DNA of 64,000 nucleotides from Planctomycetaceae bacterium (GTDB lineage Bacteria > Planctomycetota > Planctomycetia > Pirellulales > Pirellulaceae), in the NCBI GenBank assembly GCA_005798335.1, contig SYJV01000148.1:1-64000 (forward strand), read 5' to 3'. Shown one piece after another: positions 7,735 through 38,999 of this stretch (the stretch's first letter is position 1; each line of letters starts with the position of its first letter). The translations under genes were made by a program, and so were the position numbers. Below the pieces are notes generated by a model that saw only the letters and a list, made by a program, of their open reading frames with translations, did not search any database and was not told where the DNA came from.

Positions 7735-8054
7735 TCTTTCGCTAGCACTGCGATCCCAACGCTAGCACGAACATCGATTGGTAATGTATCAAATCTCAGC
7801 GCTCGCAGATTGGTAAGGTGCGCCGAAAATTGGGAAAGCACCGAAGGCAACGAATGTTCGCCCCCACTTAGTGCCGACAATCCATTCAGCGGAGACTAGT
7901 TGAATGTTTTCTGCGTCGAAGTTATCTGCCTGGGCAGGTTGACAGAAGGTGGCAGCAACTGAACTCAGCGTCTATCCGGAGCAAGCCTGCTTGCTAGCGT
8001 TCTGAGAATCCTATTCACGATTGCTAGCTCGGAAACCCTACACGGAGGTAGGAA

Positions 8055-11000: not shown

Positions 11001-13763
11001 CTGCGCAACGGCATCGGGTGTTGTAAAGGAGGATGTAAACTCGGCTGCAAACATAGCCACCACGCGCCACGTATTTGCTCACTGACGCAGAACGCCACCT
11101 TTACTAGTTTGCGCGGATTCTTCGATTCCCAAATTTCGCACGACGACACGCTGACACCACTCCAGCGCGAGATGATTCGATTGGCTCAAATCCTCAAAGC
11201 TCGGCTGGTTACCGAATTGGAATACAAACAGCGCGTGATGGAGCGAGCGGTAATCGAACAGCGGATGGATTCCTCTAGCGCTTCACATTTGGAGGCCGAG
11301 CGCGAAATCGAGGCCGAGAAAAAATCACGAGAAGCCCGCGAACTTACCCTTACATCCGAGTCCCAAGTTATCGCCGGCGTCGGAGTGGCACTTGCCGAAG
11401 TCAACTCGATTCTGCAGGCTCTCGAAAACTCGCATGCTAGGTCTCATAGTATCCTTGCCAGAACGTTACAGTTCGTCGGTGCGATTGACCGGAACTCAGC
11501 TCCCAGCGCCAGGGATACGGTAGGTACGCTTCAGCAAGTTCGCAGATTCTTACAAGACACCGAGTCATTTCGTATCAGAGAGTTTAATTCCGAACAGCAT
11601 AAGGCAAATTCTGGTCCAGTATATGTCATCAAAGATGGGCTGGACACAAGCTATTTGAAGAACTACGCGCTGCTGATTCCAACGGCAGAAAAGTCTAGTA
11701 CGAAACACCCCGATACAAGCATCTACCTGGGCCTGACACCCGCAGATGCGGCTTCAGTTCGATCGCTGCTTAATCAGCTTTCTGATGAGCTGATGAAAAT
11801 CCAATCGGTCCTAGAACCAATGGGAGTCCTGAGTCAGTCGTCGCGTGATGGAGTTACTCGTTTGGCGAGCGAAATTAAGACCGAAACAAATAGGGCTCAA
11901 GACATCGAGGGCGGTGGTTTTGTGGCAATCGCCACGATCGACAAGATCATGCGGAGTTGCGACACATCAGGCGCCTTGCTCGAACGGGCGGTCGCCACGA
12001 AAAATGAGCTGGATGTAGCACGCAGCAATGCTCAGCAATTTGAAGCCATGTTCCGCAAGTATCGCTCACGTAAAGACGTCGATCTTTCCAGCGACGGTGT
12101 GATCGATCTGTATAAAGCTTGGACCACTCTTGCCAGTTCTATTACCGCTCTCTACCAAAATGACCCATCCAAACAGGCCGAGAACAAACGCAACCTAAAC
12201 ATTCTCGCGGTCAATAGGCAATTTGAAATGTGGTTGGAAGCGATCTCGCGCGCTGAAGTGGCTACCTTGCGACTGCACGATGCGCGGCGACCGCTCGACC
12301 ATAAGAAATTCTTGGACATGCTGATCGATGACTTGGAGGAAAAGTACATCGAACTACTTGAAGGGACTCGAGCGCACACGGCGAACATTGACAATTATCT
12401 GAAACGTTTAACCACATCGCTGGATGACGATTTTAATACGCAGTTCTATTACCCGGTTTTCCGATTGGTGCGCGAGGCCAGTCAATTCAAACGCGTTGAA
12501 TTCGGCCAAACTGAAACCACGAATGTACTAGCGAATAACCGCGAGTTCGCGAAAGTTTCACCGTCGGCAACGATGGAATTTGATTTACCGAAACGCGATA
12601 TATTGATCGAAGAAGGACTCGATGCAGCGCTGGCGATCTACAACGATGTCGGAGCGCTTGTCAACGACCCAAATCTACTGGCCCTGGCGAAACTCAAAAG
12701 CGGCAGTTCCGCAGCATCGCCTCCCGCCGGATCTCTGGGGGGATTTGGTTCGGTACGCAATGTACTCCCTACTCTTCAAGGTTCAACCTCGGAACAACTG
12801 CTGGCTCGCAGCGCCGGTTCCGGCCCCGAGTTTGAATCGAACGTGGAGAAACTGATCCCCGATCCTGCAATCTACAAATTCGAGACCGGGACCGGATATG
12901 AAATTCGACCGGTCATCGCGCCCGACGGGCAAGCGGTCGTGTTCGATTTCCATTACTTGTACACCACTCAAGTTCGCGAACCAGTGCGCGCCGACGAAAA
13001 ACATTTAGGGAGAGTCAAGCAGCACTTTATCGATACTGATGTCCAGCTATCCAATTTCGAACTGCGCGAGGTCAGTCGCTATGTGGTGGCACTGAAAGCA
13101 GAACGGACGGCCAAGGGTGTACCGCTGCTGGAAGATATTCCATTGGTCGGCGCGCTGTGGCGACCATTGCCCAGTGATGAAAAGTCGTTGCAGCAGAATA
13201 TCATTATGGCTCAAGCGACAATTTTTCCGACTTTGTTCGACTTGATGGGACTGCGCTGGGCACCCGCCGTTTCCGATCTCGATCCATTGCGGTTGAGCAA
13301 TCGTGAATATCTGGTTCGCGGTCGGCACAAGTATTTGGAAAATCGCATTTACGACTATAGCAGTGCGCGGGTCGACGAATTTCTGCGAATTCCAGAAGAC
13401 CTTCGCCGCGCCGATCTGTACCGTTCGCAAGAGTCGATTCCCAGTGTACATCCCAACGGATATCGAGGCCCAGGACTCGATCTTCAGAACAGTCAAATGC
13501 GCGAGGGCTACGATCCCGAATCGACGTACGTGTCGCCTACCTTTGTCCCCGCTCAATCGGCCGAAGGAGCAACCTACTTGCCGCATCGACAAGGAAATTA
13601 TTTCGAGCAACTGCCACCGGGAGCGACTGCGACACCGGACCGAGAATCATTACAGCTCGCGCCGCAGGGACAACGAATCGGTCAGCCGTCGGCGATTCCA
13701 TCACAGTCGCCCGTTGGCGCAGCAACAAACTCGCCCAGCGACGGTTGGCAATACGCCAGGTAA
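8055..13763 (+). CDS. Giant (1902 aa) secreted/membrane-anchored coiled-coil protein with C-terminal secretin-like motif
   Basis: N-terminal TM segment (LTILVVGLMLIFCWATLI), long coiled-coil stretches, CCKGGCKLGCKHSHHAPRIC cluster, C-terminal KGVPLLEDIPLVGALWRPL. Confidence 0.75.
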   Translation: MRQLTILVVGLMLIFCWATLIRTLRNQSVRNEHSQVPEVVREPQRIASLPARELRDAVTSSNSGEFAFHYDHDSQSDINQVVTAGAFEIDSTTAIIDAADAKDPWVWKKPIWNSGIWLRSNKIKTQMTVGNGTYKTTVAIPGAPVVVVDSVTVTSGSIEVAVDNLPAGESWVDLKLNQSPKEFAVSVSRSQIPDSFHVHVPNPSNAPAKSTVNRSRLGLTYPWTPHASSINLFRNVTTTVGFEAIPANTRDRFHVLAVEKQGGKFEVISSHEPPMTELSNGQDLARRFDVPLVQESEGRLRENMYVAIISIRQLSTGSANHIVGDPTTFAFPTAPPPSSGLSISEVYGAAVTPATALRTTQRSQDKSLKLTHSVTSAKTAINLFNSESPIGDPIETSVSPITVPRIELNEGENRLFAQMFAGDEKVGTTSAIVPVEVRTDGFEVTRVEPLDLGVRLGATQLLITFSRALKVDDTIISRWKANNGVNAPFRISYSANARFDGDLTTEQLPNIEAEDGGKAIRLTVAGPKPGGYQLRITGEALTDYYGNKLTAGGGIPGGIYVKELGGADGRQRADFTVTPGVNRSDAPLVEFPEFVEPRNSSKGFNPSDKVETRVARLYFYRDAHRVAQILNRKVQSYNRQDVTLRHQQADKARQEAESLTTNRQIAEREAVTAAQRTRELENQLSDTQRSLNSTLQQIQLAAAQQVDPGTTAAQQKTDTLNKLQSAAQSFANQASQLETQIRSARETEVASNERWQQAQRKEELARADQFRLETAAAHADPDTFVPGNPRSIDPVAQASISVIGEGLLHLRGPLKGVNQLRLMVDQIDSPQGQVRINVHSTQINGDEADKLEVVANRIQTYIDQARFLTVQSGEMLRKAVVHVAAARAEDARGLYPGASQAERDQLYLHAFFGRDFVAELQTIDSEFLHTGNKLLSLHSMDVTSLSSALTMLALANNGTRLAILQEFQRLLQSDLSIAEQEYLRNGIGCCKGGCKLGCKHSHHAPRICSLTQNATFTSLRGFFDSQISHDDTLTPLQREMIRLAQILKARLVTELEYKQRVMERAVIEQRMDSSSASHLEAEREIEAEKKSREARELTLTSESQVIAGVGVALAEVNSILQALENSHARSHSILARTLQFVGAIDRNSAPSARDTVGTLQQVRRFLQDTESFRIREFNSEQHKANSGPVYVIKDGLDTSYLKNYALLIPTAEKSSTKHPDTSIYLGLTPADAASVRSLLNQLSDELMKIQSVLEPMGVLSQSSRDGVTRLASEIKTETNRAQDIEGGGFVAIATIDKIMRSCDTSGALLERAVATKNELDVARSNAQQFEAMFRKYRSRKDVDLSSDGVIDLYKAWTTLASSITALYQNDPSKQAENKRNLNILAVNRQFEMWLEAISRAEVATLRLHDARRPLDHKKFLDMLIDDLEEKYIELLEGTRAHTANIDNYLKRLTTSLDDDFNTQFYYPVFRLVREASQFKRVEFGQTETTNVLANNREFAKVSPSATMEFDLPKRDILIEEGLDAALAIYNDVGALVNDPNLLALAKLKSGSSAASPPAGSLGGFGSVRNVLPTLQGSTSEQLLARSAGSGPEFESNVEKLIPDPAIYKFETGTGYEIRPVIAPDGQAVVFDFHYLYTTQVREPVRADEKHLGRVKQHFIDTDVQLSNFELREVSRYVVALKAERTAKGVPLLEDIPLVGALWRPLPSDEKSLQQNIIMAQATIFPTLFDLMGLRWAPAVSDLDPLRLSNREYLVRGRHKYLENRIYDYSSARVDEFLRIPEDLRRADLYRSQESIPSVHPNGYRGPGLDLQNSQMREGYDPESTYVSPTFVPAQSAEGATYLPHRQGNYFEQLPPGATATPDRESLQLAPQGQRIGQPSAIPSQSPVGAATNSPSDGWQYAR

Positions 13764-13799
13764 CTCCTAAGATTTCATGACCCGCAGGATGCCCATCCC

Positions 13800-14669
13800 A
13801 TGAAACACTCGACTCGCCGGTCTTTTGTAGTGATCTGCGGTTCGATCTCCGCGTGGTTAGTTGATCGATTAACCGCGCAGGCCGATGATCTACTATCGAT
13901 CCGCAAAGCTCGTCGGCGCGTGCAACCATTGTGCGCGGTGCCGCCGGCGGACTATCAATTCGGCGCACGCACGCCATCCCTGATCGTCCGCAGCATGCCA
14001 GCGATTCCGCGTTATGCTCGTGAAGATATTGATGCACTGGTCGCGATTCTCAAGTCCTATTCCAATAGCATCGCTGAGATCGAGTCTGTGACGATACCCG
14101 AGCCGACAGCATTTCAATTGGCCGATCGCGCCGAGTTGGCACTGAGCAAGCGATTGGAGGCCGACAGTGCCAGCCATTTACTGAGCCGCCCAATCTCGAA
14201 ATCAATGCAACTGGCCGATGCTCAGTTGACGATCGCCCATTGCAGTCTCAGCGACGTCGCGCTGGTCGTCGAGCCTAGCGGACTATGGCAACTGAGCTTG
14301 CGCGGCGATCAAAACTACTTGCGTCGCGACGAAGCGCGCCCGCGCAATCTCGACCTGCAAATCAAACGCAACGCTTTCAAAGTCAAGTTTCGGTTGTTGC
14401 GATCGACGCGCAGCGGTGGCGAGAATCTGACGCCTGCTGTTGGCGGCGAGCCAGAATTCTATCAAACGGGCAAGACCGCGCTAGCAGCTATCGATGTTCC
14501 GGAGTTTTGGGTCCAACGCGAAGCTCCACAGTCGATCACACAATCGGGGCGACACCCCATGATCGCCGCACATTACGACGAGATTGACCAAGCGGAATTT
14601 GAATTCTTCGTCAAACTCGATCCGCTGACGGGAAACGGTCAAGGCGTCGTGCAACCTTGGCAACGTTAG
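13800..14669 (+). CDS. Hypothetical protein
   Basis: 289-aa ORF co-directional with the 1902-aa gene, short intergenic gap. Confidence 0.65.
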   Translation: MKHSTRRSFVVICGSISAWLVDRLTAQADDLLSIRKARRRVQPLCAVPPADYQFGARTPSLIVRSMPAIPRYAREDIDALVAILKSYSNSIAEIESVTIPEPTAFQLADRAELALSKRLEADSASHLLSRPISKSMQLADAQLTIAHCSLSDVALVVEPSGLWQLSLRGDQNYLRRDEARPRNLDLQIKRNAFKVKFRLLRSTRSGGENLTPAVGGEPEFYQTGKTALAAIDVPEFWVQREAPQSITQSGRHPMIAAHYDEIDQAEFEFFVKLDPLTGNGQGVVQPWQR

Positions 14670-14714
14670 CAAGTAACCGGTTCTTTTGATTCAGTTTCCA
14701 GCAGGCAATGTAAG

Positions 14715-15560
14715 ATGGCGATGCTTCACATCGAAAAACCAAGATTGGCGATGATCAGCGCCTTCATCATTACCTGGGCGATCTTGCCCACGCTAGTTTT
14801 CGTCTTCGCGCAGGAGCCGGATAGTTTACTTCCCAAGAACCGCTTGAGTTCCTTGACCGCGCGAGTATCACCGGTTCTGGAAATCGAAGTGTTGGATCCC
14901 AATCGCGACGCGCGCGGCAATCCGGCGGTGACTATCAAGACCGACGAATTCGGAAACTCGCAGGTTGATATCCCACCCTCGTTGATCGTGCATCGCTACT
15001 ATTATACGGGTGATCGCAGTTTTCGTGGCCCCGATTTGCCCGGCGGACCTTCGATCGTCATCGCTCAGAATCCCCGCGATGGCCAACAAGTTTATTTGCC
15101 AGTTCAAATGTTGCCTGGATCCCCGATAGTGCACTATGGTCCGCGATCGATCGAATACGATTTTGGTAACCGAGCCGTGATCGTGACGTTTCCCCATGTC
15201 GGCGAGCCAACTGTCAGCTATCGCAATGGCCGCCCGCTGCCCGAGAAAGCCGCCAAACTGCTGCGGCTGGACAAGCTCAAATCCGCTTGGCAAAGCACCA
15301 AAGAAACAGCGTCCAATGTCCGCGCGAAAACCAAGACGGCTGCCCAAGCAACGCGGCTGGCTGCCGGCAGCGTAACTCGACCATTCACACTGCCGGCCCA
15401 AAATCTAGCTCGCTTTCTGCCAGGTGGCACAGCTTTGACAGATCCCGGATTAGAGGCGCGTATCGTCGAACAGTCAGCGCTTCTAAAGCAACAAACGGAA
15501 GTCCGGCAAGCCGCCGCTGAGGCGCGCATTGGACAACTCGATTTGCCGAGCCCGCAATAG
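14715..15560 (+). CDS. Hypothetical exported protein
   Basis: 281-aa ORF with N-terminal hydrophobic segment (MISAFIITWAILPTLVFVFAQ); co-directional with the preceding genes. Confidence 0.65.
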   Translation: MAMLHIEKPRLAMISAFIITWAILPTLVFVFAQEPDSLLPKNRLSSLTARVSPVLEIEVLDPNRDARGNPAVTIKTDEFGNSQVDIPPSLIVHRYYYTGDRSFRGPDLPGGPSIVIAQNPRDGQQVYLPVQMLPGSPIVHYGPRSIEYDFGNRAVIVTFPHVGEPTVSYRNGRPLPEKAAKLLRLDKLKSAWQSTKETASNVRAKTKTAAQATRLAAGSVTRPFTLPAQNLARFLPGGTALTDPGLEARIVEQSALLKQQTEVRQAAAEARIGQLDLPSPQ

Positions 15561-15708
15561 ATAATCTCGGGGTGTTACGATTTCGGCGATCGCGGATATC
15601 TATTGATATATTGACGGCTGACGCGGCTCGTAGTCTGATATGTACCACGATTGAATTTGGTACGTCAGGTCCGTTACGGAATCACCTTAACCTCGAGAGT
15701 TTCGGAAG

Positions 15709-16839
15709 ATGAAAGAACTGCGCATCGGTATGATTGGGTATGGTTTTATGGGCAAAGCTCATTCGAACGCTTACGCCCAAGCGAGTCATTTTTTCAAGTC
15801 CGAATATCGACCTGTATTGAAAGTACTGTGCGCTCGCAATGCCGCCAAGGCGCAGTCCTTCGCGGATACTTGGGGATACCAGTCCGTCGAGACAGACTGG
15901 CGAAAATTGGTCCATCGTGCCGACGTGGATGCAGTCGATATTTGCACTCCCAACAATAGCCATAAGGAGATCGCAATCGAAGCAGCCAAGGCGGGCAAGA
16001 TGATTTTATGCGAAAAGCCGCTAGCCATGAACGCTGCCGAAGGCGAAGAAATGTGCACGGCTGTCGAAAAAGCTGGCGTGCCCAATATGGTTTGGTACAA
16101 CTATCGCCGAGTTCCCGCAGTGACCTTGGCCAAGCAGATTATTGATCAAGGCAAGCTTGGGAAAATCTTCCACTATCGCGCGAATTTTCTTCAAGACTGG
16201 ACGATAAACGCCGAGGTTCCTCAGGGCGGCGCGGGAACTTGGCGGTTGGATGTCGACGCGGCTGGCAGCGGTGTTACCGGCGACCTGCTCGCGCATTGCA
16301 TCGACACTGCCATTTGGCTCAACGGCTCGATTCGAGACGTGACTGCGGTCACGGAGACGTTTGTCAAAGAACGTTTGCATGCTGAAACCGGCAAAAAGCA
16401 AGCAGTTGGTATCGATGATGCTTGTTCATTCCTGTGCCATTTCAACAATGGTTCGCTCGGCTTATTCGAATCGACTCGCTACGCGCGCGGGCACAAGGCG
16501 CTGTATACGTTCGAAATCAATGGTGAAAAAGCCAGCATCTTTTGGGATCTGCATGATCTGCACCGCTTAAAGTACTTCGATCACAGCGACGATTCCGTCG
16601 TTCGCGGCTGGCGCAGTATCCACGTTTCGGATGGCGATCAACCTTATATGGGCAACTGGTGGGTCCCGGGATTGCAGATCGGTTACGAGCATTCGTTTGT
16701 CCATCAAGTTGCGGACTTTCTAAAATCTCTCGAAACTGGCCAGCCCGCTCATCCGAATTTCCGCGACGCGTTAGAAACTCAGAGAGTTTGCGATGCCGTT
16801 CTGGATAGTGCCAAGCAGGGCAAGTGGCTGAACGTATAG
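15709..16839 (+). CDS. Gfo/Idh/MocA family oxidoreductase
   Basis: [53 protein letters not shown]. Confidence 0.93.
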
Positions 16840-16940
16840 TTCGAACTGCGACCGTTGGTCCGCTTGATCAACTTGCCTGCAAGCGAAATGATGACTGGTG
16901 TTCCTTGGCAACTACATGCGTCGGTGTGAACCCGGACTGA

Positions 16941-17636
16941 ATGAACTACTTTGCACATGCTCGGAGGTTCTTGGATGACTCGTATTTTGTCGCCGGAACC
17001 GCCGTACCGGATTGGTTAGGAGTCGTTGATCGCAAAGTGCGCGCTCGTTCGCAAGGTGCTCGGACGCTGCTGGACGATGCTGACCCGCGCGTAGTGAGTT
17101 TGGCGCGCGGGATCATCCAACATCACTTTGACGATGGTTGGTTCCACCAATCGGCCGCTTTTCAGCAATTGAGTGCTAAATTCGCGATTAGTCTTCGCGA
17201 AGTCCTGGGCGGTGATCGCAGTTTGCGGCCAGGGTTTTTGGGACACATCGCCGTTGAACTGCTGTTGGACGATTGCTTGGTCAAGGACGATCCCGAGCGA
17301 CTGGAGCGGTATTACGCCGCGCTGGACTCAATCGATCCGGTACTTGTTGAGCAGACAGTGAACCGAATCAGCCGGTTCGCCACTGACCGGTTGTCGCTGC
17401 TGGTTCCTCGCTTTTCCGTCGAACGGTTCCTGTACGATTACGCTTCGGACGAAAAACTGTTGCGGCGTCTCAATCAAGTTCTCGGACGTGTGGGGCTGGA
17501 ACTTCTTCCAGATTCTATGGTGGCTTGGTTGGCACAAGCTCGTCAGGAGGTAAAATCGCTGCGAATGGAATTGCTTTGTGGCGAATCACAACAGATTGCA
17601 TGGCAGGTAATCGGCCGTTCCGCAGAGAGTTTTTGA
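16941..17636 (+). CDS. ACP phosphodiesterase-like hypothetical protein
   Basis: MNYFAHARRFLDDSYFVAGTAVPDWLGVVD...RGIIQHHFDDGWFHQSAAF; resemblance from memory only. Confidence 0.5.
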   Translation: MNYFAHARRFLDDSYFVAGTAVPDWLGVVDRKVRARSQGARTLLDDADPRVVSLARGIIQHHFDDGWFHQSAAFQQLSAKFAISLREVLGGDRSLRPGFLGHIAVELLLDDCLVKDDPERLERYYAALDSIDPVLVEQTVNRISRFATDRLSLLVPRFSVERFLYDYASDEKLLRRLNQVLGRVGLELLPDSMVAWLAQARQEVKSLRMELLCGESQQIAWQVIGRSAESF

Positions 17637-27576: not shown

Positions 27577-27650
27577 GGGCGGTTAGCTCAGTTGGTTAGA
27601 GCGCCACGTTGACATCGTGGAGGTCGCTGGTTCGAGTCCAGTATCGCCCA
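27577..27650 (+). tRNA. tRNA-Val (anticodon GAC)
   Basis: 74-nt cloverleaf GGGCGGTTAGCTCAGTTGGTTAGAGCGCCACGTTGACATCGTGGAGGTCGCTGGTTCGAGTCCAGTATCGCCCA; loop TTGACAT; acceptor pairs with one G-T. Confidence 0.95.
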
Positions 27651-27952
27651 TCTCCCTCATTTTGCCTAGAGTTGCCCGAAGCTGCCTCAAGTGCATTTTT
27701 CCCTTGTTTTTCTTGGGTATTTTCAATTGATGAATTTTCGTTAACCATTTCAGCGTTGCCGCAAGGCGCCTCAAAACGCCATTCAATGGGAGCGCCAGTG
27801 GGAGCGCCGATTGGACTGCTGACCGCCAGAGCGCGTTCCAAATCGCTTTCCGAGACCGTCCAATAGTGTTCGCGAGCAATCTCTTCCGTATGCCCACAAA
27901 TAGCGGCTGCGATGTGTCCTGGAAGGCTGCGAGCCAAATCGGGTCTGGCTTG
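27596..27952 (-). pseudogene. Tyrosine recombinase (integrase) C-terminal remnant running into the tRNA-Val gene
   Basis: QARPDLARSLPGHIAAAICGHTEEIAREHYWTVSESDLERAL: integrase C-terminus with GH..H.Y motif; in-frame TAG just upstream and no catalytic core. Confidence 0.8.
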
Positions 27953-28254: not shown

Positions 28255-28494
28255 ATGAATCGACCTCTCTTCACAGATTTCGGCACGCCCCAAAGTTCAT
28301 CACACAGCGTTGGCGACTCTCCTACGAGGCCAATGCCGGTAAGGCCGCAGGGAGAACCCAACGAAATCGAAGTCTGTTATTCGTCGGAACTGGCCGAGGC
28401 GCTGCGCCGCATCGAGATCGAGGTCCAGCAAGAAATTGATCTCCAACGACAACAGGAATTGGCGCGGAAACGCGAATTGGCTCGTTACGATTAA
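28255..28494 (+). CDS. Small hypothetical protein upstream of NACHT-FGE gene 1
   Basis: 79-aa ORF, AAGGAG Shine-Dalgarno upstream of ATG, co-directional with the target gene. Confidence 0.5.
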   Translation: MNRPLFTDFGTPQSSSHSVGDSPTRPMPVRPQGEPNEIEVCYSSELAEALRRIEIEVQQEIDLQRQQELARKRELARYD

Positions 28495-28516
28495 GCTCCG
28501 ACCATGGGTTATCAGC

Positions 28517-28560
28517 TTATTCCATCCAAGTGCCTTCCAACGGTTACTTGGATGGAATAA
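28517..28560. repeat. Perfect inverted repeat upstream of NACHT-FGE gene 1
   Basis: TTATTCCATCCAAGT (28517-28531) / ACTTGGATGGAATAA (28546-28560), 15 bp arms, 14-nt loop. Confidence 0.9.
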
Positions 28561-28630
28561 ATTTGGCAAAACGTGTCCCAGGTGGCTGGGGTTGAATGTA
28601 CTTCGCTACCTAGAACAACTTGAGTTCCTT

Positions 28631-31213
28631 ATGTCCGATCCGTTTCTGGTTCACCAACGTGTTTTGCAATTGATGACGACGGGCGATGTACGCCGTTATC
28701 TACACCCTGACTTTTTCCGCACGCGCCGATTATCGGGTGGCCAAGTGGAGAATGTCGATGCTGGAAACTGGGAGGCGGTGACGCGCGACACGTTGTTGCA
28801 AAAATTGAACGGAACCGATGGCACCGCGGCTAGACTCGTCCTCACGACGGACGCGGGAGTCGGCAAATCGGAAAACTTGTGCTGGCTGGAAAAGGAGTTG
28901 CTAACTCGGTGCCGAAGTCGCCAATCGTTCTTAATAAAACTGGGCGATCTGGCGGAGAAATTGGCTGGAAGGGAATTGTCGGCGGATCAGTTTCTCGAAA
29001 CGGTATTGACTCCTATCATGTTAGCGCGCGATTCGTCCAATACGATCGGCAACGCGACCGAACTCTTGCCGCGTCAAGTCACCAACTATCTTCGGCGGCT
29101 AGCGCTGTCGGGAAGATTGACTCTGCTGTTTGATGAACTCGACCAGGTACACCCTGCCAGCCCCGCAGTCCGAACTCTGCTCAACGTTGTGACGAGCCTT
29201 GCTAGGTTACCGATCGCGGTTGGTGGCAGGCCGTATGCGCTGCAAGATTGCTGGGAGAAGCTGTTTGCGAGCGGAGATTGGCAGTTTTTCCAGTTCGAGG
29301 GCTTTACGACTCAGCAACAGCGAACTTACTTGCGGGACCAAGACGGTCATGACAGGTACGAAGACTTACCCGAGGAAACGAAAACCGAATTACAGGATAT
29401 TCTGACGATCCCACGTGTGCTCAGTTATCTTCGAAAGCTCGATCGCCAGGACTTCGAATCGATTCACACGCCAAGCGATATCTATGAACGCGCGATCTAC
29501 CACTTGGTGGAATTCGGGCTGAAGAAAGTTAAAGCCTGCGAATTGGGAAGAACTGCGATTGTTTCGCAGGAATCTACTCAGTTGAACATATCGATCGATG
29601 GCTCCCAGGTCCGACAAGCCATCCGAATTCTCAGCGCCTTGGCTTGGGAAATGCTTTGGGTGCCCGAGCCCAATACGCCTGGGCGGATCGCCGAGCCAAG
29701 TGCGCACGCTATGGCTCCCAATTTCAATCGAATTCAGGGTGCCAGCGCCATCGACAAATTGAATCGCGCTGCGTTCGAGCGGCTGAAGAACCCGTACTTC
29801 GGCGATAGCGGATACAGCACATTCGAAAATGCAGTCGAGCGGTTGAAGTCGATGAATGAAGCCATCGAACAAGGTATCGTTGATTCGAAACGGATGGAGC
29901 AGATTCTGTGGCGCAACCGATCGCTACAAGAATTTCTGGCCGCGCGCGAGATTTGCTGGCACTGTACCGACGCGGATGTCGATCGACTGTGGCAATGGGT
30001 GCATCTGCATCATGACGCGCGAACTGATGCCTTTTATTGGATCTGGCGGTTCGCGGCGGAAATGTCCGACACGGAGATCGACCAGTCGGCTTGGGCCAAG
30101 GCAATGTCACCGCTCTACCGTGTCGGGGATGGGACTGCCGAGGGGACCAAACGCTCTAGCGAGATGCTATATCGCACATGGCCCCGGATGCAGGACAATG
30201 GCGTACCGTACGTCGAACAATTCCTATCCGAGTTCCAATCCGTCGTTGACGGCCATCAAGGCGACCGGCGCCAGTCTGGCGCACGCCACTTTCAAACGAT
30301 GTTCGCGCCGGTGCCCGCCGAACCGCGCTTTCGAATGGGCTCTCCAGATCACCAACAGGGCTTGCCCGACGACGAACGTGAGCGATGGGCACAATACCTG
30401 CGTTCCATCGTTGACGCGGAAGCCTATGCCAACGAGCGAGCAGACAAAGCCGGATATGTGCCAGGACCGCGCGGCGACGCCAATCGACAGTGGCTGCGCG
30501 ACAAATGGTTATCGATACTCCGTGGTGGAGGAATTGAAGAATTGGAGGCTTGGTGGTACGCAAAAGATGAAACGCCGCGCAAGGACTGGAAGGATGACTT
30601 GGCTAGCTTTCAGTTGAATCGATATCCGACGCTGCGAAGCTGGTACGAACTGTTCGATCCCGGACATGGCGATGGGAATCGCTGGTTCCACGCCGATCTG
30701 GGCAAACGCGCGCCTTCCGGCGACCATCCCGTGCTGTACGTCAACTGGTACGATGTCTGGGCATTTTGCACTTGGGCGTATTGGAATGGCCAAAGTTGTC
30801 GATTACCGCATGAAGACGAATGGGAGAAGGCGGCCAAGGCAGGCACGCGTTGGGATTGGGGATACTGGTGGGGAGACGAGGATGATCCGGAGAAACGCAC
30901 GGCGAACCTTAACATCAATCAAGGACATACTTCCAAGCCTGTGGATTTTGACACACTCAGTACAGGGCACCATCAGGGAAACCATACCAATCCCCTGACG
31001 TTCGTCGATATGCTTGGTAACCAATTGGAATGGACGGCTGACGCGTACAGTCCGCAATACCGGCGGGAGCATCGGTATCATGCAGCCTCGCGTGTTTGCC
31101 GTGGCGGGGCGTGGTTCTACAATCCAAGGGATGTCCGTTCTGCGTACCGTAGTGGCGGTCATCCCCCGTTCTTGCGCCTCTACGTAGGTTTTCGTGTGGC
31201 CAGGGCTTCTTAA
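28631..31213 (+). CDS. NACHT-like STAND NTPase with C-terminal FGE-sulfatase/C-type-lectin-fold domain; DGR target protein 1
   Basis: P-loop LTTDAGVGKSEN, Walker B LTLLFDELDQ; C-terminus YVNWYDVWAFCTWAYWNGQSCRLPHEDEWEKAAKAG...FVDMLGNQLEWTADAY...SRVCRGGAW...GFRVARAS; ATG at 28631 in ORF 28436..31213. Confidence 0.9.
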   Translation: MSDPFLVHQRVLQLMTTGDVRRYLHPDFFRTRRLSGGQVENVDAGNWEAVTRDTLLQKLNGTDGTAARLVLTTDAGVGKSENLCWLEKELLTRCRSRQSFLIKLGDLAEKLAGRELSADQFLETVLTPIMLARDSSNTIGNATELLPRQVTNYLRRLALSGRLTLLFDELDQVHPASPAVRTLLNVVTSLARLPIAVGGRPYALQDCWEKLFASGDWQFFQFEGFTTQQQRTYLRDQDGHDRYEDLPEETKTELQDILTIPRVLSYLRKLDRQDFESIHTPSDIYERAIYHLVEFGLKKVKACELGRTAIVSQESTQLNISIDGSQVRQAIRILSALAWEMLWVPEPNTPGRIAEPSAHAMAPNFNRIQGASAIDKLNRAAFERLKNPYFGDSGYSTFENAVERLKSMNEAIEQGIVDSKRMEQILWRNRSLQEFLAAREICWHCTDADVDRLWQWVHLHHDARTDAFYWIWRFAAEMSDTEIDQSAWAKAMSPLYRVGDGTAEGTKRSSEMLYRTWPRMQDNGVPYVEQFLSEFQSVVDGHQGDRRQSGARHFQTMFAPVPAEPRFRMGSPDHQQGLPDDERERWAQYLRSIVDAEAYANERADKAGYVPGPRGDANRQWLRDKWLSILRGGGIEELEAWWYAKDETPRKDWKDDLASFQLNRYPTLRSWYELFDPGHGDGNRWFHADLGKRAPSGDHPVLYVNWYDVWAFCTWAYWNGQSCRLPHEDEWEKAAKAGTRWDWGYWWGDEDDPEKRTANLNINQGHTSKPVDFDTLSTGHHQGNHTNPLTFVDMLGNQLEWTADAYSPQYRREHRYHAASRVCRGGAWFYNPRDVRSAYRSGGHPPFLRLYVGFRVARAS
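31083..31203 (+). repeat. DGR variable repeat VR1
   Basis: 121 bp aligned ungapped to TR 31420-31540; 18 differences, all at TR adenines. Confidence 0.97.
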
Positions 31214-31281
31214 ACCCTTTCCCCTTTTCTTCCCTTTCTTCTGTCTTTCTCAGCCCGCGAAGCGGGCGCGCGATATTTGGA
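31204..31281 (+). promoter_or_regulatory. DGR initiation-of-mutagenic-homing (IMH)-like block downstream of VR1 with pyrimidine tract and hairpin
   Basis: GGCTTCTTAAACCCTTTCCCCTTTTCTTCCCTTTCTTCTGTCTTTC..GCCCGCGAAGCGGGCGCG; hairpin 31253-31267; same block downstream of VR2. Confidence 0.8.
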
Positions 31282-31419
31282 AGCCCAGCGACTTGCGCGA
31301 CTCTAACGATCACGTCTGCGAAAAAGCGCGTTCTGAGGAATGAAAGCTCGAAATGCGGACGAGGACTCAAACACATTGCGAATTTCACCGCACAATATTC
31401 ACTAGTGGGCGACCGATCA

Positions 31420-31540
31420 CAGCCTCGCGTGTTTGCCGTGGCGGGGCGTGGAACAACAATCCAAGGAATGTCCGTTCTGCGAACCGTAATGACAATCATC
31501 CCACGAACTTGAACAACAACATAGGTTTTCGTGTGGCCAG
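31420..31540 (+). repeat. DGR template repeat TR
   Basis: 121-bp near-copy of both VRs with AAY-rich variable codons (would translate [36 protein letters not shown]). Confidence 0.97.
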
Positions 31541-31555
31541 TGCTTTGCGATGTAG

Positions 31556-31798
31556 GGTGTTCCGTTTCTGGGTTATCGAATCTTTCCCTCCCGCTGCCTG
31601 CTGCAAAAGCAAAACATAGCTCGCTTTCGGCGTCGTATGAGATTTGCACAGGAACAGTTTCAAAACGGGAAGTCAGATACCAATGACATCAGGCAGCAAA
31701 TTCGCAGTTGGCTGGGACATGTCTCGCACACGCAAAGCCATGAACTGGTGGCCCGCACCCTTGATAAAGTTACTTTCACGCGAGGATCGATTCGATGA
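31556..31798 (+). pseudogene. DGR reverse transcriptase, C-terminal (thumb) remnant
   Basis: Frame after TAG 31553: [80 protein letters not shown]; typical DGR-RT C-terminus; palm with YxDD missing. Confidence 0.88.
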
Positions 31799-31825
31799 CC
31801 TTGTTTCGAAAGGTTTTCGGAAGGC

Positions 31826-31903
31826 TCCAGAAATATCGCGCCCGCTTCGCGGGCTTGGAAAGACAGAAGAAAGGGAAGAAAAGGGGAAAGGGTTTAAGAA
31901 GCC
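31826..31903 (-). promoter_or_regulatory. IMH-like block downstream of VR2 with hairpin
   Basis: Minus-strand copy of the VR1 downstream block; hairpin 31840-31854. Confidence 0.8.
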
Positions 31904-34398
31904 CTGGCCACACGAAAACCTAGGTAGGTGTCCAAGAGCGTGGGAGGATGGCCAAGACGGTACGCAGAACGGACAGACCTCGGAAGGTAGTACCACGCCC
32001 CGCCACGGCAAACACGCGAGGCTGACGTGCGCGGCATCGATTGCCCCAATGTTTCCCGTGGGTCATCCGTGTAGGAATTGGAACACCATTCCTCTACGTT
32101 GCCGTAGATATCATGCAAGCCCCAACCGTTGGCTGCTAATTCGCCAACTTTTCGGGTGTAGCCTTTTTTCCAATCTTGCCCGAAATTCGCCACTTTGGCC
32201 AGCGCAGCTCGAACTTCATCGAGATTGGACTGGTCAGAGCAACAAAAACGGATACTCTGCGTGCCAGCCCGAGCCGCGAATTCCCATTCCAGCTCATGCG
32301 GCAGACGATAGATCTTGCGATGGATCCCATCTCCAGAATCTCTCGGACCGGTCAACCAACGGCAAAACATCACTGCTTGAAACCAATTGACATCAACCAC
32401 TGGATGCTGGTCCAGTTCGCCTACGTCGTTGACACGATCTTGGAATGATCGAAAGTGCTTGGGCTCGAACAGTTCGTACTGCTCGCTAGTCACTGGCGTG
32501 CGCGCCAATTCAAAGGGCGCAGCCAACTGTACATTGCGCTGTGTCTCGTCTCTCCACACACTCACCGTTGGGTTGTTCTCCTGGTCTGGATTAGAACCCG
32601 ATACAAACTTGAGATCGTCTGGTCCGCTGTATTGTGGCGGAATGGGTACAAAATCGCCCACCAATCGATGGGCGATGCTTCGGCAATTTTCGCCTTGAGT
32701 GCCTCGTAGAATCTCGCCTGAGAATTCCGCACAAAACTGGCGAAGCGTTTCCCGGGCGACCAGCGAATGCACGGGCAAGTTGCGAGGATTGGCTACATGG
32801 TAGGCCGCCAGCGATTCCATCAGGTCCCAACTGCGAAACAACATTTCACACGAACGCAGGCCAAGTTCTGGCCGTGGGGCGTACAGCGGCGCCAAAGCGC
32901 GAACCCAGTTCAGCGACGTGCGATGTTCCTTGGGCATCTCGGCCAAGAACCGCCACACTCGATACAGATGGTCGTCGTTCAATTCGTCATGTCCCGGCAA
33001 CCAAGGCGTTCGGCCAAATCGGGCGCAGTCCTCCGGCTCCGAGTGCTTGGCCAGATATCTCGCCACGAAAAACTCATGCAACGTCGGATCGCGAAAGTAG
33101 ATATCTGTCAATTGGTCTTCGATGTCCAGAAAGCAGTACTCCAACAACGAATTGGTTTCCCCGACTGTCACCAGTGCTTGATGCAGATCATCCACGGACG
33201 CAAACCGCAGCGCGGCCCCACGTTGCGTGAACAGGCGATGTTCGAAGTCGTACAATTCTCCTTCCGCGACACCCTCCCAGTTCTTTTCGTCAAACATTTG
33301 CATCGCCACTGCAGACAACAGGTGCAGACCACGTTCTTTCCAGTTGCCCCTCTGTGCGCCATCGACGGCGGATTGTCCTGCCGTTCGATCGACTGCCGCA
33401 TCCTCACTCCAAACGTGATCGATCACCGCCGCGTACAGTTCGCTGGGCGAATGGAGATCGTCCAAACGCACTTCGGGCAAGCGCTGCACCGCTTCTAACA
33501 TTCGCGGGTTTTCGAGCGATTCAGTGTCGAGCGAATTCAACTTGTCGAATTTCCACTTACCAAGATACGCGCGGCGTTGTCCTTCCTCGGTAAAGCCCTG
33601 CATCTGCGCGAATCGCCAGTTGCCGTTTTCGAACAAGTCCTTCCAATGCCGCCTGACCGAATGGGGTCGTCCCGCCACGACGGCTCGGCATTGCCCCGCG
33701 GTCTCGTTGAGAAACTTGCCCAGGGCCACGATCTTAGGATGATGTTTGTTGCCAACCTCACGATCGTGAGTCTGATCGAGACCGTCGATCAAGAAAGTCA
33801 CGCTGCCCGACGCGACCATGCGCCGGAGATAGTTGACGATGCGCGCATCGAGCCGTTCTCTCTCCGCCTTGCTCAATTCGCCTGGAAACTGAGAAGCTCG
33901 TAGGATTTCCAAGCACGGCCCCGAGAGAAAATCGTCCTTCGAAGTCGGCAAATCCTTCATCTGCAAGTACAGCCACAGATGGCGTCCCGACGAGTGTAGA
34001 GCAGTTGTCCCCAACTGCTTGTTCGAGTCCTCATTGTTCGCATCCAGAGCGCCTCCAAGAAACGCTTCAGCCCATTTCAACGTCGTCGTCTTGCCGATAC
34101 CGCCGTCGATTGTCAAGCACAATCGATGCAGTGAAGCGTCGGCGAACAGAGCTTCGCGCGTGGTCGCTTGCCAGCGATCCATCCAACGTTGGTAACCGTC
34201 CGCGAACCTCTCCAGGCCAGTCTCGCGCTGGTCTGGCTGGTCCTTCTTTCGTCGCTTCTCCAGCGCAATCCAGCGCGCTATGCGAAATGCCTCGGGTTTG
34301 AGGAACTCCTCCGCGCTAACACCATCGTCGAGCAACAAGAATTCCTGCGAACGGATAAACGGCAGCGGCTTTTCCATGGTCCTCGAACAGTCTCGCAC
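31894..34398 (-). CDS. NACHT-like STAND NTPase with C-terminal FGE-sulfatase/C-type-lectin-fold domain; DGR target protein 2
   Basis: P-loop LTIDGGIGKTTT, Walker B VTFLIDGLDQ; C-terminus [64 protein letters not shown]. Confidence 0.9.
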   Translation of the reverse strand: MRDCSRTMEKPLPFIRSQEFLLLDDGVSAEEFLKPEAFRIARWIALEKRRKKDQPDQRETGLERFADGYQRWMDRWQATTREALFADASLHRLCLTIDGGIGKTTTLKWAEAFLGGALDANNEDSNKQLGTTALHSSGRHLWLYLQMKDLPTSKDDFLSGPCLEILRASQFPGELSKAERERLDARIVNYLRRMVASGSVTFLIDGLDQTHDREVGNKHHPKIVALGKFLNETAGQCRAVVAGRPHSVRRHWKDLFENGNWRFAQMQGFTEEGQRRAYLGKWKFDKLNSLDTESLENPRMLEAVQRLPEVRLDDLHSPSELYAAVIDHVWSEDAAVDRTAGQSAVDGAQRGNWKERGLHLLSAVAMQMFDEKNWEGVAEGELYDFEHRLFTQRGAALRFASVDDLHQALVTVGETNSLLEYCFLDIEDQLTDIYFRDPTLHEFFVARYLAKHSEPEDCARFGRTPWLPGHDELNDDHLYRVWRFLAEMPKEHRTSLNWVRALAPLYAPRPELGLRSCEMLFRSWDLMESLAAYHVANPRNLPVHSLVARETLRQFCAEFSGEILRGTQGENCRSIAHRLVGDFVPIPPQYSGPDDLKFVSGSNPDQENNPTVSVWRDETQRNVQLAAPFELARTPVTSEQYELFEPKHFRSFQDRVNDVGELDQHPVVDVNWFQAVMFCRWLTGPRDSGDGIHRKIYRLPHELEWEFAARAGTQSIRFCCSDQSNLDEVRAALAKVANFGQDWKKGYTRKVGELAANGWGLHDIYGNVEEWCSNSYTDDPRETLGQSMPRTSASRVCRGGAWYYLPRSVRSAYRLGHPPTLLDTYLGFRVARAS
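31904..32024 (-). repeat. DGR variable repeat VR2
   Basis: 121 bp aligned ungapped to TR; 19 differences, all at TR adenines. Confidence 0.97.
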
Positions 34399-34490
34399 GA
34401 ATCGGGTTGAATCTTACGTACCAAACATGGTATTCCTAAGGGCGCCAGAAATAAATGAGCGCGGGCTGTGAGCGAAAGGGCGCTAAACCC

Positions 34491-34610
34491 AATACCGTTC
34501 AACGAACGTGGGATAAGCTTCCAGCTTGTCAATATCTTGTGTAAGCAATGGCGAAACTCCGCTACAGGTTGACAAGCTGGAAGCTTATCCCACGTTCGTT
34601 GAACGGTATT
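34491..34610. repeat. Perfect 42-bp inverted repeat upstream of target gene 2
   Basis: AATACCGTTCAACGAACGTGGGATAAGCTTCCAGCTTGTCAA (34491-34532) and its exact reverse complement 34569-34610; 36-nt loop. Confidence 0.95.
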
Positions 34611-34661
34611 GGCGCTAGACCGCGGCCGCAGAGTTAGCCAATTTGGCGGCAATTGTCCTGT

Positions 34662-35837
34662 CTAAGGTTGTGGCTGTTGTATGGGCTGGCCTTTGTCGTC
34701 GACCTCGTAGAACTTCGCATTCCACGCGTTCAATCGATTCTCGCGATGCTTGCGGGCGACGCGGGAAGACAGCAACAGTTCGTCAAAAGCTTCGCCGACT
34801 GTATCGACTTCCGCAATGTATTGAAGGTGCTGTGGATCGATAAGCTGTCGATCTGTTTTCTCTCTGCCTGCGGGCCGATTGTCCAATTGCTCTTTGGCAG
34901 CCACGATTAACAAACGACCATGCTGGACCGCAGCCGCGACTTTGGCCGGAAAGCCTGCGACAGGGAACAATCGAGTCATTCTGCCACACAGGTTCGACTT
35001 ATCCAGCATCGCCGTAACCGCCCCCATATCGTCAAGCGAATCGTCTCCGATGGCGGGTTCACCAGGTATCCCACCGGCCGCAGCCCACAATCCACACACA
35101 AAAGCTGCTTCGCACGATCGATCGTGCAATCGCTGGTAATTTGGGAAAGTACAGTTATCCACTGAATCCAACCACCATTGGAATCCGTCGCCGTTGGTAA
35201 AACTCGCAACCTGCCAAGCGTTCCGCGTACCGTCGAGAAATCCATCGTCTCCTTCCGATAGCGCCGTCAACCCGATCGAACCCGGCCGCAATTCAATCTC
35301 ACGCGCGTGATTGCAGCGGGCGATGTTCAACTCGCCCACCACGGCTGATTCGATTTGATTTGGAACGGCTGATCGGGTTTGACCTGGAGCGTTGTGACTT
35401 TCGCGCCCAGTGGAAACTAGCAGTATGCCAAGTCGCGATGTTTTGGGTAGCGAGTCTTCCGATTCAGTGGTGGACGCAACTTGCCCGCACAGCCGCTCTA
35501 AATGCGCAGTTAGTGCGCTGATTGTCGACTGAGCTTGCTGAACCGCTTGCCCATATTCTTCTTGCAATCCTTGGTATATAAACTCAAAATTGGATTTTGT
35601 TTTTGATTTTTCCTGAGCGGCATTCAGCGCCTCGTGGAAACTTCTCAGGAACTCTGAAAAGGCGTCCCTTCCACCGAAGCTGGCTACGGCCTGTTCCCGG
35701 GTCCTGGCGTCAAGATGCAGAATTCGCACGGCCCGCGCCAGCGTCGACGTCGGGCCGAGCATAGTGTGGCTGCTTTTCGACCATGTATCAAAATTGCCGA
35801 TCTGAAGCAACTCTTCCCTTTTTATCTTAAACTTCAC
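34662..35837 (-). CDS. Hypothetical protein
   Basis: ORF 34662..35909; GTG at 35837 (VKFKIKREELLQIGNFDTW) gives a short overlap with the upstream gene end at 35827. Confidence 0.65.
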   Translation of the reverse strand: MKFKIKREELLQIGNFDTWSKSSHTMLGPTSTLARAVRILHLDARTREQAVASFGGRDAFSEFLRSFHEALNAAQEKSKTKSNFEFIYQGLQEEYGQAVQQAQSTISALTAHLERLCGQVASTTESEDSLPKTSRLGILLVSTGRESHNAPGQTRSAVPNQIESAVVGELNIARCNHAREIELRPGSIGLTALSEGDDGFLDGTRNAWQVASFTNGDGFQWWLDSVDNCTFPNYQRLHDRSCEAAFVCGLWAAAGGIPGEPAIGDDSLDDMGAVTAMLDKSNLCGRMTRLFPVAGFPAKVAAAVQHGRLLIVAAKEQLDNRPAGREKTDRQLIDPQHLQYIAEVDTVGEAFDELLLSSRVARKHRENRLNAWNAKFYEVDDKGQPIQQPQP

Positions 35838-36657
35838 AATCCGCTTTCTCCTTTTCCTTCCAGATGTCGATAAACTTGTCAATGCGTTCGACCTGCGCCC
35901 CATGTGCACAGCAGTCTTTCAATTCCTGGAGCATGGTTTCGGTGTAGTGCATCGTCGTATCTTCGCTGGCAGCCACAATGCGCGCCGTCAACTGCGAATG
36001 CACCGTCTGAATGACCAGTTGACGCAAGTCCAATTTCAGCCAATAGGAATTGGGGGATTCGTCGAGCATCACCGGTTGCATGGCGACCAGCCGATTATCT
36101 TGGCTGCGGTCGACTACGTAAATCAGACCGAAGCCGTATGGGACTTTTTCCTTTTTGGTTCGCAAGCGGTAGATCCCATCGCGAGAAATGTGCTCGAACT
36201 CGTCGGTCGTCGGAATGGAGTCGTCTTCGTCAACTGCGTCCGCTCCTTTCGCTTCGCCCTGGAAGACAACTGCCGGAAAGTCGGTCGCCTTATCCAAGAT
36301 GCCGCGCGTGGACTCTGCCAACAGATCGACGGCGGATTTGATGTGTTCCATGAGCCACCCAGGAGCACTTTTCCATTGAGAGATCAATTTGCGGATGCGT
36401 TCGTGGCGATCCTCTTGCTCCATGTCCAGATACATCTGGGTGAACTCGCGCGAGTATTGTGACAAGTCAGCCGTGACCGCATGCTCGACCGCTTCTGCCA
36501 TGACGATGGATGGATCGCGGTGCATGTCGGGATCGAGTTCGTCCAACCATTTGCGGATTCGAGGCTCCGTCAAAGACAACGCCTCCAATTCTTGGGCTCG
36601 CTGTGTGTCGAGCAAGTTGGCATAGTACAGAAAAACGTCTTTTTTAGTGAAGTTCAT
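35827..36657 (-). CDS. Hypothetical protein
   Basis: 276-aa ORF (MNFTKKDVFLYYANLLDTQRAQELEAL...), co-directional with neighbours. Confidence 0.65.
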   Translation of the reverse strand: MNFTKKDVFLYYANLLDTQRAQELEALSLTEPRIRKWLDELDPDMHRDPSIVMAEAVEHAVTADLSQYSREFTQMYLDMEQEDRHERIRKLISQWKSAPGWLMEHIKSAVDLLAESTRGILDKATDFPAVVFQGEAKGADAVDEDDSIPTTDEFEHISRDGIYRLRTKKEKVPYGFGLIYVVDRSQDNRLVAMQPVMLDESPNSYWLKLDLRQLVIQTVHSQLTARIVAASEDTTMHYTETMLQELKDCCAHGAQVERIDKFIDIWKEKEKADCEV

Positions 36658-36710
36658 AATTAATCTCCTTGAAAAATGTTTGAGCTGTTTCGTGGTTGAG
36701 GGGGACGAGA

Positions 36711-37478
36711 TTAGCGGCGTTTCTTGCGAGGATTCTGAAAATAGGACTGGAGAATCTGATTGAGCTGGTCGAGCGTAAGCCCAAACGAGCGGGCAACCTC
36801 CATTTCGGTTTCATCATCCCCTTCGCCGCTCTTTAGCAACCATTCGCGAATGACTCTTTGCTCGAACTCAGGAAGATCTTTCAATCTTTCTTCGAGTGTG
36901 ATGGCAATCTGATCGGGACGCGGCGACGACTTACCAGCGTAGTCGCGCGGTGTTTGCATCGGATCAGATTCGGCACCAAACGCACCGGTGAGCGATGACA
37001 CCTGTTCTTTCTGGCTTTTCAAGTAATAGCAGATTGACCGCTCGACCGTTTTGGCGAAGAACTTTTTGCTCCAGAATCGAGCCCAATGCGTGCTGCCAGC
37101 GTGCTTCTTTTCCCATTCCTTCGCGCTTCGCAACACCAAGAATACGCAGTACTGCACGATAATCGGGTAGAAATCCATGAACCGTAACCCGCGCGATTTG
37201 TCCGGAGGAAGGTTTTTTACGACACTCCCTTGGAATATTGGGTCGCTAGCAAGTCGGTAATAGAATTCTCTAATTGCGGGATAGGGATAATTGCCATGTT
37301 CATCTGGCGAGAAGATCTCCCGTAACATGTTATCGATGGTCTCAATCTGTGCGGCGCTGGCTAAACCGTACAACTTGCAGATGATATCCCATTCAACAAT
37401 CAGCCTGCGAAGTAGATTCCAATCTTTCGACCAATGGTCCGGAGGGAAATCTTCAGGTTGGAATTCAATGTCACGCAT
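36711..37478 (-). CDS. RNA polymerase sigma factor-like protein (sigma-70/ECF-like)
   Basis: C-terminal sigma region 4-like LEERLKDLPEFEQRVIREWLLKSGEGDDETEMEVARSFGLTLDQLNQILQSYFQ and aromatic/basic central region. Confidence 0.6.
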   Translation of the reverse strand: MRDIEFQPEDFPPDHWSKDWNLLRRLIVEWDIICKLYGLASAAQIETIDNMLREIFSPDEHGNYPYPAIREFYYRLASDPIFQGSVVKNLPPDKSRGLRFMDFYPIIVQYCVFLVLRSAKEWEKKHAGSTHWARFWSKKFFAKTVERSICYYLKSQKEQVSSLTGAFGAESDPMQTPRDYAGKSSPRPDQIAITLEERLKDLPEFEQRVIREWLLKSGEGDDETEMEVARSFGLTLDQLNQILQSYFQNPRKKRR

Positions 37479-37631
37479 TGATTGGGCTCCCTTTAATACG
37501 CCGGAGATTTGGAATTACTGAAAACGCGATATCTATCTGAAATGCGTTTGCCGTCCCATGATGCGCGCGAAATCATTGTGAAATTGCAAGAAACTTGTGT
37601 AGGATTGAATAAGTCATTTGTATGCAAAGGT

Positions 37632-38999
37632 TTACGGCGATGAATTTATTCCACACCACTTGCATTCGGGCAGGCCGCTCACAGCACGGTCAGCCACGAG
37701 GAGTCCATCGGGACGCCAATCTACGCGACTCCAACGGCTGGTCGTTGAACGGCCCGTCAGGGTATCGATCAGGTGCTGAATGCCGATCGATACGGTGATC
37801 GCGTTCAAGGTGACCAACGAGCCGGCTCGCTGTTGGCGAAAGTCGATCGACGGTCGGATGGGGCGAACGCCCGGCGGCAATCGCAGTTCGAGTTCGGCAT
37901 CCTCTCGATCCGCAATCCCTCCCACGCATGCAGCGCACCCTTGGCGTGGCAGGAACAGTCGCACGTCACCAGACATCGTAAGTTCACCGCTTTCCGTGCG
38001 CTGAACGCTCGTACCGATATCCAAGTGAATCTTGTTCCAGCAATTTGCCAACTGCGCGGCCAGCAATACTGGCGTTCCGTGATCGACACAGGTAACCAGC
38101 ACGTCGGCGTTCTGAGCTCGCTCAGCCACTCTTAAATCGGTAGCGGTACTTGGGATACCCGTGACGGCAATATCATCGCAATACCGCGTGATTTCGTTGG
38201 CCAGCGCAGAGACCTTCTTATTGCCAATATCTCCCAAGTCGCCACCGAGCATCGCGTCGAAGTTGTGGATTTCCAGCACGTCGGGATCCACGAGCGTCAG
38301 TTTTCCAATTCCCAATGTCGCCAATTGGCGAGCCGCTACCGATCCGTTACGCGAGGCGCCGATTACCATCACGTGCATATCACGCAAAGACTCGACAAAC
38401 TTCGATCCCAGCATATTGGTCAGTCGGCTCCACCGGGCTGGGATTTTGGAAGGCGTTTGTGGATCGTTGATGGGCGAATTCCTCAAAAGAAGATAGGGGC
38501 CTCCCGCAATCTTTAGAGTGCCAATTGGAGACACGTCAGTGCCGTGAAACAACCACGCGCGCCACTGGCCTCGCCGATTACCGAATCCAAAGCTCAATAC
38601 CACCCACGATTGCCCCGGAAGCGGCAAAAAGATTTCTCGCAATTCCTTTTCGGAGCGATAGGGTGTATCGTCCGAACCACCAACCGCCACTATCCAATTC
38701 GCATTCAACGGTCGCTCGATGCCCAACGGAACCTTTACAGTGCGGGTCATGCCACCAACGGAAAGGCGAAAGGTATCATGCACAAATCGTTTGACCAATC
38801 GGCCGACCATTACCGCATCAGGATTCATCGCCAGTGTGCGCACGACGTTAGCAAAATCTACGCGAGCTATTTCCAACACGGTTTGATCCGAATATGCGAC
38901 CACGTGAGCGACTCTCCGATGAAATCGAAACAGGAATGGAACACTACTGACTAAAAGGCGTATGCGGAACGAGTGCCGAATTCCGTAAAAAGATGTCAT
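37632..38999 (-). CDS. E1-like ThiF/MoeB/HesA-family adenylyltransferase
   Basis: VMVIGASRNGSVAARQLATLGIGKLTLVDPDVLEIHNFDAMLGGDLGDIGNKKVSALANEI, ADVLVTCVDH, CAACVGG and CKWCG Cys pairs. Confidence 0.85.
   Translation of the reverse strand: MTSFYGIRHSFRIRLLVSSVPFLFRFHRRVAHVVAYSDQTVLEIARVDFANVVRTLAMNPDAVMVGRLVKRFVHDTFRLSVGGMTRTVKVPLGIERPLNANWIVAVGGSDDTPYRSEKELREIFLPLPGQSWVVLSFGFGNRRGQWRAWLFHGTDVSPIGTLKIAGGPYLLLRNSPINDPQTPSKIPARWSRLTNMLGSKFVESLRDMHVMVIGASRNGSVAARQLATLGIGKLTLVDPDVLEIHNFDAMLGGDLGDIGNKKVSALANEITRYCDDIAVTGIPSTATDLRVAERAQNADVLVTCVDHGTPVLLAAQLANCWNKIHLDIGTSVQRTESGELTMSGDVRLFLPRQGCAACVGGIADREDAELELRLPPGVRPIRPSIDFRQQRAGSLVTLNAITVSIGIQHLIDTLTGRSTTSRWSRVDWRPDGLLVADRAVSGLPECKWCGINSSP

Follow-up and report, generated by a model that had tools for sequence, protein, structure and literature searches.

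A probable degenerate diversity-generating retroelement in which two convergent NACHT-FGE genes carry strictly adenine-directed variation relative to one TR

We analysed a 64,000-nucleotide stretch of DNA from a Planctomycetaceae bacterium (the whole of this stretch is referred to as the window). Near its centre, two convergent target genes face each other across a short interval that holds a TR and the remains of a diversity-generating retroelement (DGR) reverse transcriptase (RT), and the 3' end of each gene carries a VR. The features, with their strands, are as follows:

28436–31213, plus strand: target gene 1, an ORF with a weak NACHT match (~28838–29338) and a C-terminal FGE-sulfatase domain (~30671–31204)
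31083–31203, plus strand: VR1, 18 changes relative to TR, all at TR adenines; similarity continues to 31208
31209–31281, plus strand: post-VR1 arm, a pyrimidine tract and the hairpin GCCCGC-GAA-GCGGGC (31253–31267); no counterpart after TR
31420–31540, plus strand: TR, with adenine-rich variable codons (31 A in 121); similarity to the VRs continues to 31545
31546–31555, plus strand: Sp stub, ~10 nt of the conserved Sp region, ending in an in-frame TAG
31556–31798, plus strand: DGR RT remnant, codons ~281–358 plus stop, without catalytic residues
31826–31898, minus strand: post-VR2 arm, with the same hairpin (31840–31854)
31894–34398, minus strand: target gene 2, with a weak NACHT match (~33553–33969) and an FGE-sulfatase domain (~31903–32574)
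31904–32024, minus strand: VR2, 19 changes relative to TR, all at TR adenines; similarity continues to 31899

Computational re-alignment of TR with VR1 and VR2 gave a gapless alignment over 121 bp at the coordinates proposed in a first-pass annotation of this DNA. TR differs from VR1 at 18 positions (8 A>T, 7 A>G and 3 A>C) and from VR2 at 19 (8 A>T, 8 A>C and 3 A>G), the same numbers that the annotation had reached by hand. All 37 of the 37 differences lie at TR adenines and none at a TR C, G or T; substitutions at non-A TR positions, named beforehand as grounds for rejecting the reading, therefore number zero. The hypergeometric chance of an all-A placement is 1.6e-13 for VR1 and 2.0e-14 for VR2, and the strict adenine-directed bias is real. 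Altered in at least one VR are 24 of the 31 TR adenines, 13 of them in both, and at 6 of these 13 sites the two VRs have acquired the same new base. The ~90 non-A positions of each TR/VR pairing are without a single difference for either VR. Beyond the 121 bp the similarity runs on to TR position 31545, with one mismatch (T/G at 31541) in the IMH*/IMH zone. The annotation's remark that variable TR codons cannot mutate to stops at their adenines holds for every TR codon, and the theoretical repertoire computed for each VR is 8e15 proteins. DNA searches found this TR nowhere else in the genome, and it is absent from 14 of 14 congeneric genomes.

Both target ORFs have an FGE-sulfatase domain at the C-terminus (PF03781; E 1.2e-26 and 2.4e-37). 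A profile of the window's target domains and their relatives matches solved formylglycine-generating enzymes and, in a PDB sequence search, the Treponema variable protein TvpA (2y3c; E 1.5e-47). TvpA is a known DGR variable protein, and these matches bear out the earlier assignment of both VRs to the C-terminus of an FGE/C-type-lectin-fold domain. The NACHT matches (PF05729) are weak in both targets (E 0.001 and 0.0029, under the gathering score). The start codon of target gene 1 is uncertain and probably lies near 28634. PADLOC returned no match for either target gene, and among GTDB contigs no locus related to target gene 1 was confirmed. Both proteins probably act as STAND/NACHT sensors, with lectin-like tips that would formerly have been diversified.

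An inverted repeat absent from the first-pass annotation continues for ~73 bp beyond each VR and places the hairpin at an equal distance past VR1 and VR2, with none past TR. Hairpins 3' of the VR are needed at DGR target sites (PMC3240598). The hairpin of the window has a 3-nt GAA loop, whereas those of phage DGRs have a 4-nt GRNA loop, and at 44 nt it stands farther from the VR than in phage DGRs.

Directly 3' of TR lies an RT stub of ~80 codons that had been missed earlier. A DGR RT profile, built from intact RTs of related genomes (L042, L047 and L055) that are encoded next to homologous NACHT-FGE genes, has its only match on the window's contig at 31553–31783. This match takes in the final 77 of the 345 positions of the model (E 3.9e-17) and has a single in-frame TAG where it starts. 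The homology itself begins at 31556 and reaches the natural stop at 31798 in a frame that is open throughout; the stub is 46% identical to the RT of L104, and a further match has E 1.3e-37. In the intact relative L055, RVT_1 spans residues 72–286, which leaves the stub almost wholly outside RVT_1 and without any catalytic part. No intact DGR RT is present in the 69-kb contig or in the 8.46-Mb, 97.5%-complete assembly (558 contigs), and the N-terminal part of a DGR RT was found on no contig. RVT_1 matches in the genome all lie on other contigs and none has the DGR motif; from motif and context we read these RTs as group II-like, Cas1-fused and retron-like. On contig C549 of this genome (G000; L002) an RT is fused to Cas1, of the CRISPR adaptation type. 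A slight frame resemblance to the RT N-terminus, seen by eye upstream of TR (31342–31400), was too weak to claim.

The usual order in intact relatives is VR, hairpin, bAvd, RT, TR and then a conserved downstream RNA element. The bAvd of L055 matches PF22296 (E 5.6e-22); in the genome studied here no bAvd match exceeded the cut-off (best 19.1 bits), and within the window locus no Avd/HRDC-type accessory protein gave a convincing match. A putative Avd remnant between VR1 and TR was rejected, as it had no convincing match either.

The conserved RNA element past TR in intact relatives is ~110 nt long and, by its place in the locus, corresponds to the Sp (spacer) of BPP-1, whose role is to recruit the RT-Avd complex and to prime cDNA (PMC12875486). 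A covariance model of Sp (R1, 20 sequences) picks up the element immediately 3' of TR in intact DGR loci outside its training set, at E 1e-9 to 1e-2 (L219 at 1.5e-9, L255, L251, L202, L233 and others), and scores 25–72 bits in intact loci with E <0.01. In the window R1 scores 1.1 bits where Sp would be expected (31538–31579) and at most 7.1 bits anywhere in 30900–32200; Rfam has no match at 30000–33000. A hairpin with a loop like UUUACGGA, followed by GUCCA, stands just after TR in L055, L104, L134, L203, L216, L257 and others, and the Sp hairpin with the UUUACGGA-like loop is conserved across phyla in this DGR RT lineage under model R1.

We consider the window locus likely to be a degenerate DGR that was recently disabled and that belongs to the cellular kind associated with STAND NTPases. 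The first-pass annotation had described a DGR in which one TR serves two convergent NACHT-FGE genes. The repeats, the targets and the adenine-directed variation stand, and the RT, Avd and Sp are missing; because a DGR is defined by its RT, the term is not right as written. TR served both target genes in the past; present service has no support.

In the intact ancestor, an error-prone RT-Avd complex would have copied TR, and the A-randomised cDNA would have been written into the 3' ends of the two convergent NACHT-FGE genes. The pattern of A-specific differences and target hairpins shows this past transfer, and its enzymology is taken from DGRs already characterised. Afterwards the RT core, Avd and Sp would have been lost, most simply in one deletion reaching from just past TR (Sp nt ~10) to RT codon ~281, with an assumed ancestral order of VR1>TR>(Avd)>RT><VR2. 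Left behind would be two receptor variants now frozen, a template that can no longer be used and the stub of the RT. The deletion path is one that we infer, and gene order in this RT lineage bears on it in two ways. RT precedes TR in ~47 of 54 loci and follows it in 7 of 54 (a count hand-corrected in part, for loci without a tail match), so that the single-deletion path needs the minority order, which counts against it. On the other side, the TR-before-RT order finds support, as regards this subtype, in contig C23 of G064, with a convergent layout and a stub at the same motif.

Without selection a TR would drift, and the zero non-A differences accordingly place the last transfer in the recent past; roughly bounded, the divergence accrued since that event is less than ~3%. 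The lack of non-A decay in TR and in the VRs counts against a long-dead element, and a recently broken element fits best. Two observations pull the other way. The RT stub frame, open to its natural stop, counts against a degenerate reading, and the fragmentary assembly counts against a loss, as an RT could sit in a gap.

Similar systems have been described. In cellular clade 5, DGRs are known to have NACHT/STAND targets and to serve two targets from one TR, and degenerate loci are on record as well (PMC10907252; for related systems see PMC7159879), and within clade 5D two NTPase targets per TR are common (Doré et al. 2024, PMC10907252). The closest parallels to the window are DGR 3, 4, 5 and 7 of Thiohalocapsa sp. 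PB-PSB1 (Doré et al. 2024, PMC10907252), where TR and/or VRs are kept while the RT is missing or pseudogenised. Like the source genome of the window, Thiohalocapsa PB-PSB1 has several DGR loci, STAND/NACHT lectin-type targets (NACHT putative in the window) and MITE-like repeats at DGR loci (PMC10907252). It differs in having one complete locus per class, a potential trans donor (PMC10907252), whereas no complete locus was found in the source genome; in the window, moreover, Sp has gone and TR is joined directly to the 3' stub of the RT. The window locus, with its TR and VRs and without the machinery, has what Doré 2024 takes to mark a degenerate DGR (a DGR TR/VR whose key machinery is lacking or reduced to pseudogenes).

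Membership of clade 5 would follow from the organisms and the RT similarity. The cellular DGRs of this clade (Roux 2021, PMC8144416; clade 5D of Doré 2024; for example L055, L104, L105, L134 and L047) share with the window a homologous RT and FGE/C-type-lectin targets, and several also share the post-VR hairpin. These comparison loci have RT, bAvd and Sp (the RT of L134 is truncated), whereas the window has none of the three intact. The BPP-1 DGR of a Bordetella phage (mtd/avd/TR/brt) resembles the window in A-specific transfer from TR to VR, an IMH, a 3' hairpin and a lectin-fold target, in the order target, TR, RT; it is phage-borne, complete and active with one target, whereas the window locus is cellular, with two convergent targets and its RT core deleted. 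The window locus thus belongs to an already described kind, in a broken form for which Thiohalocapsa provides precedents.

Two more broken DGRs are present in the same genome, on contigs C369 and C194. Contig C369 (L041, G000:C369) carries at 7381–17293 a second convergent FGE gene pair, whose VR-like 3' ends differ only in the variable core and are followed by a hairpin-bearing inverted repeat. The spacer between the genes encodes a remnant of 38 residues, 47% identical to an HRDC-type DGR accessory protein (E 6e-7) and thus truncated. This locus has no RT or TR, and a TR for its VR pair is absent from the genome; the first TR scan match on L041 proved to be a near-identical 3' inverted repeat. 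Contig C194 (L167) retains an RT tail and a TR, with a MITE-like repeat of 132 bp inserted in the Sp. As a donor for C369 or C80 the C194 TR was rejected, since DNA searches gave no partner.

Other genomes of the family often carry DGR RTs that are truncated or contain stops. Cassettes of TR plus RT tail are found repeatedly in the family: in the window, C194, G081, G074 and G210, and partly also in G064. In another genus of the family, G064:C23 (L050) has a convergent VR pair and a stub starting from the same FLGF/Y motif as in the window; its RT stub adjoins TR-derived sequence of which, unlike in the window, only ~25 bp of the TR 5' end is kept. At ~6990–8390 of L165 (G081:C67), a protein kinase frame runs into the C-terminal tail of a DGR RT, with a TR behind it.

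Upstream of target gene 2 lies an operon of four ORFs (34662–38999, minus strand):

34662–35909 and 35827–36657, minus strand: two ORFs of unassigned function
36711–37478, minus strand: sigma-factor-like ORF, by reading only
37632–38999, minus strand: ThiF/E1-like protein (PADLOC E1-E2 models, E 2.5e-18)

A similar ThiF-containing operon stands beside the second FGE pair on C369, and the operon of the window is possibly a conflict system. Between operon and target gene 2, a 132-bp MITE-like element with 44-bp perfect inverted arms occupies 34485–34616; it occurs at ~40 or more sites in the genome, 98–99% identical, and the copy within the Sp of the C194 remnant is one of them. As the cause of the RT loss in the window this element was rejected, its copy being upstream of target gene 2 and away from the deletion. 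At 27577–27937 a tRNA-Val is overlapped by a short minus-strand ORF that resembles a tyrosine recombinase C-terminus (HTEEIAREHYW) and has no Pfam match. This may perhaps be an island edge; integration at the tRNA-Val was rejected, as the window has no second copy of the tRNA ends (att).

Four other accounts of the window locus deserve consideration, and the first is a serious alternative, although we think it rather unlikely. On this account the deletion would be one structural allele, and sister cells would keep an intact RT whose allele very recently made the VRs seen. Long reads revealed the same at DGR 3 and 7 of Thiohalocapsa PB-PSB1 (PMC10907252), and perfect TR/VR agreement at non-A positions is as expected, but the absence of TR from all the congeneric genomes speaks against it. 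It does not conflict with the reading of the deleted allele as broken.

Much less probable is continued diversification in trans, by an RT and Avd (perhaps also a TR RNA) encoded elsewhere on unassembled DNA. Trans activity at RT-less loci has been inferred in Thiohalocapsa PB-PSB1 (PMC10907252), the hairpins of both VRs are intact, and TR agrees with both VRs at every non-A position; against this stand an assembly of such completeness without DGR RT or Avd, and a genome without a second copy of TR. The local TR, moreover, is without Sp, and since Sp recruits the RT and primes cDNA, even an RT acting in trans should not use it. A slightly fainter prospect is a minimal DGR without its own RT, Avd or Sp that is still written in trans, the recurring cassettes being non-autonomous DGRs under selection and not debris.

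A shade more doubtful still is an assembly artefact, with a wrong join made through the repeats and the RT left in a gap. The assembly is fragmented, three repeat copies lie at the locus and DGR loci are easily broken in assemblies, but the junction of TR and RT stub falls ~10 nt past the repeat end, in unique sequence, where a repeat-mediated swap cannot create it. Nor does any contig carry the N-terminal part of a DGR RT or Avd, and C194 and C369 bear other, independent lesions. That ordinary duplication and substitution made the three repeats without a DGR is refuted by the placement of every difference at a TR adenine, and the target hairpins and RT stub also stand against it.

Read as a recently disabled DGR, the window locus indicates that perfect A-directed agreement between TR and VR is no proof of a live DGR. 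It offers a well-bounded example of loss: RT, Avd and Sp have disappeared, yet the ~90 non-A sites of each pairing are unchanged. Trans activity, if true, would reveal non-autonomous DGRs. Three differently broken DGRs in one genome, together with the common broken or truncated RTs of the family, raise the question of whether bacteria of this sort switch diversification off and so fix useful receptors.
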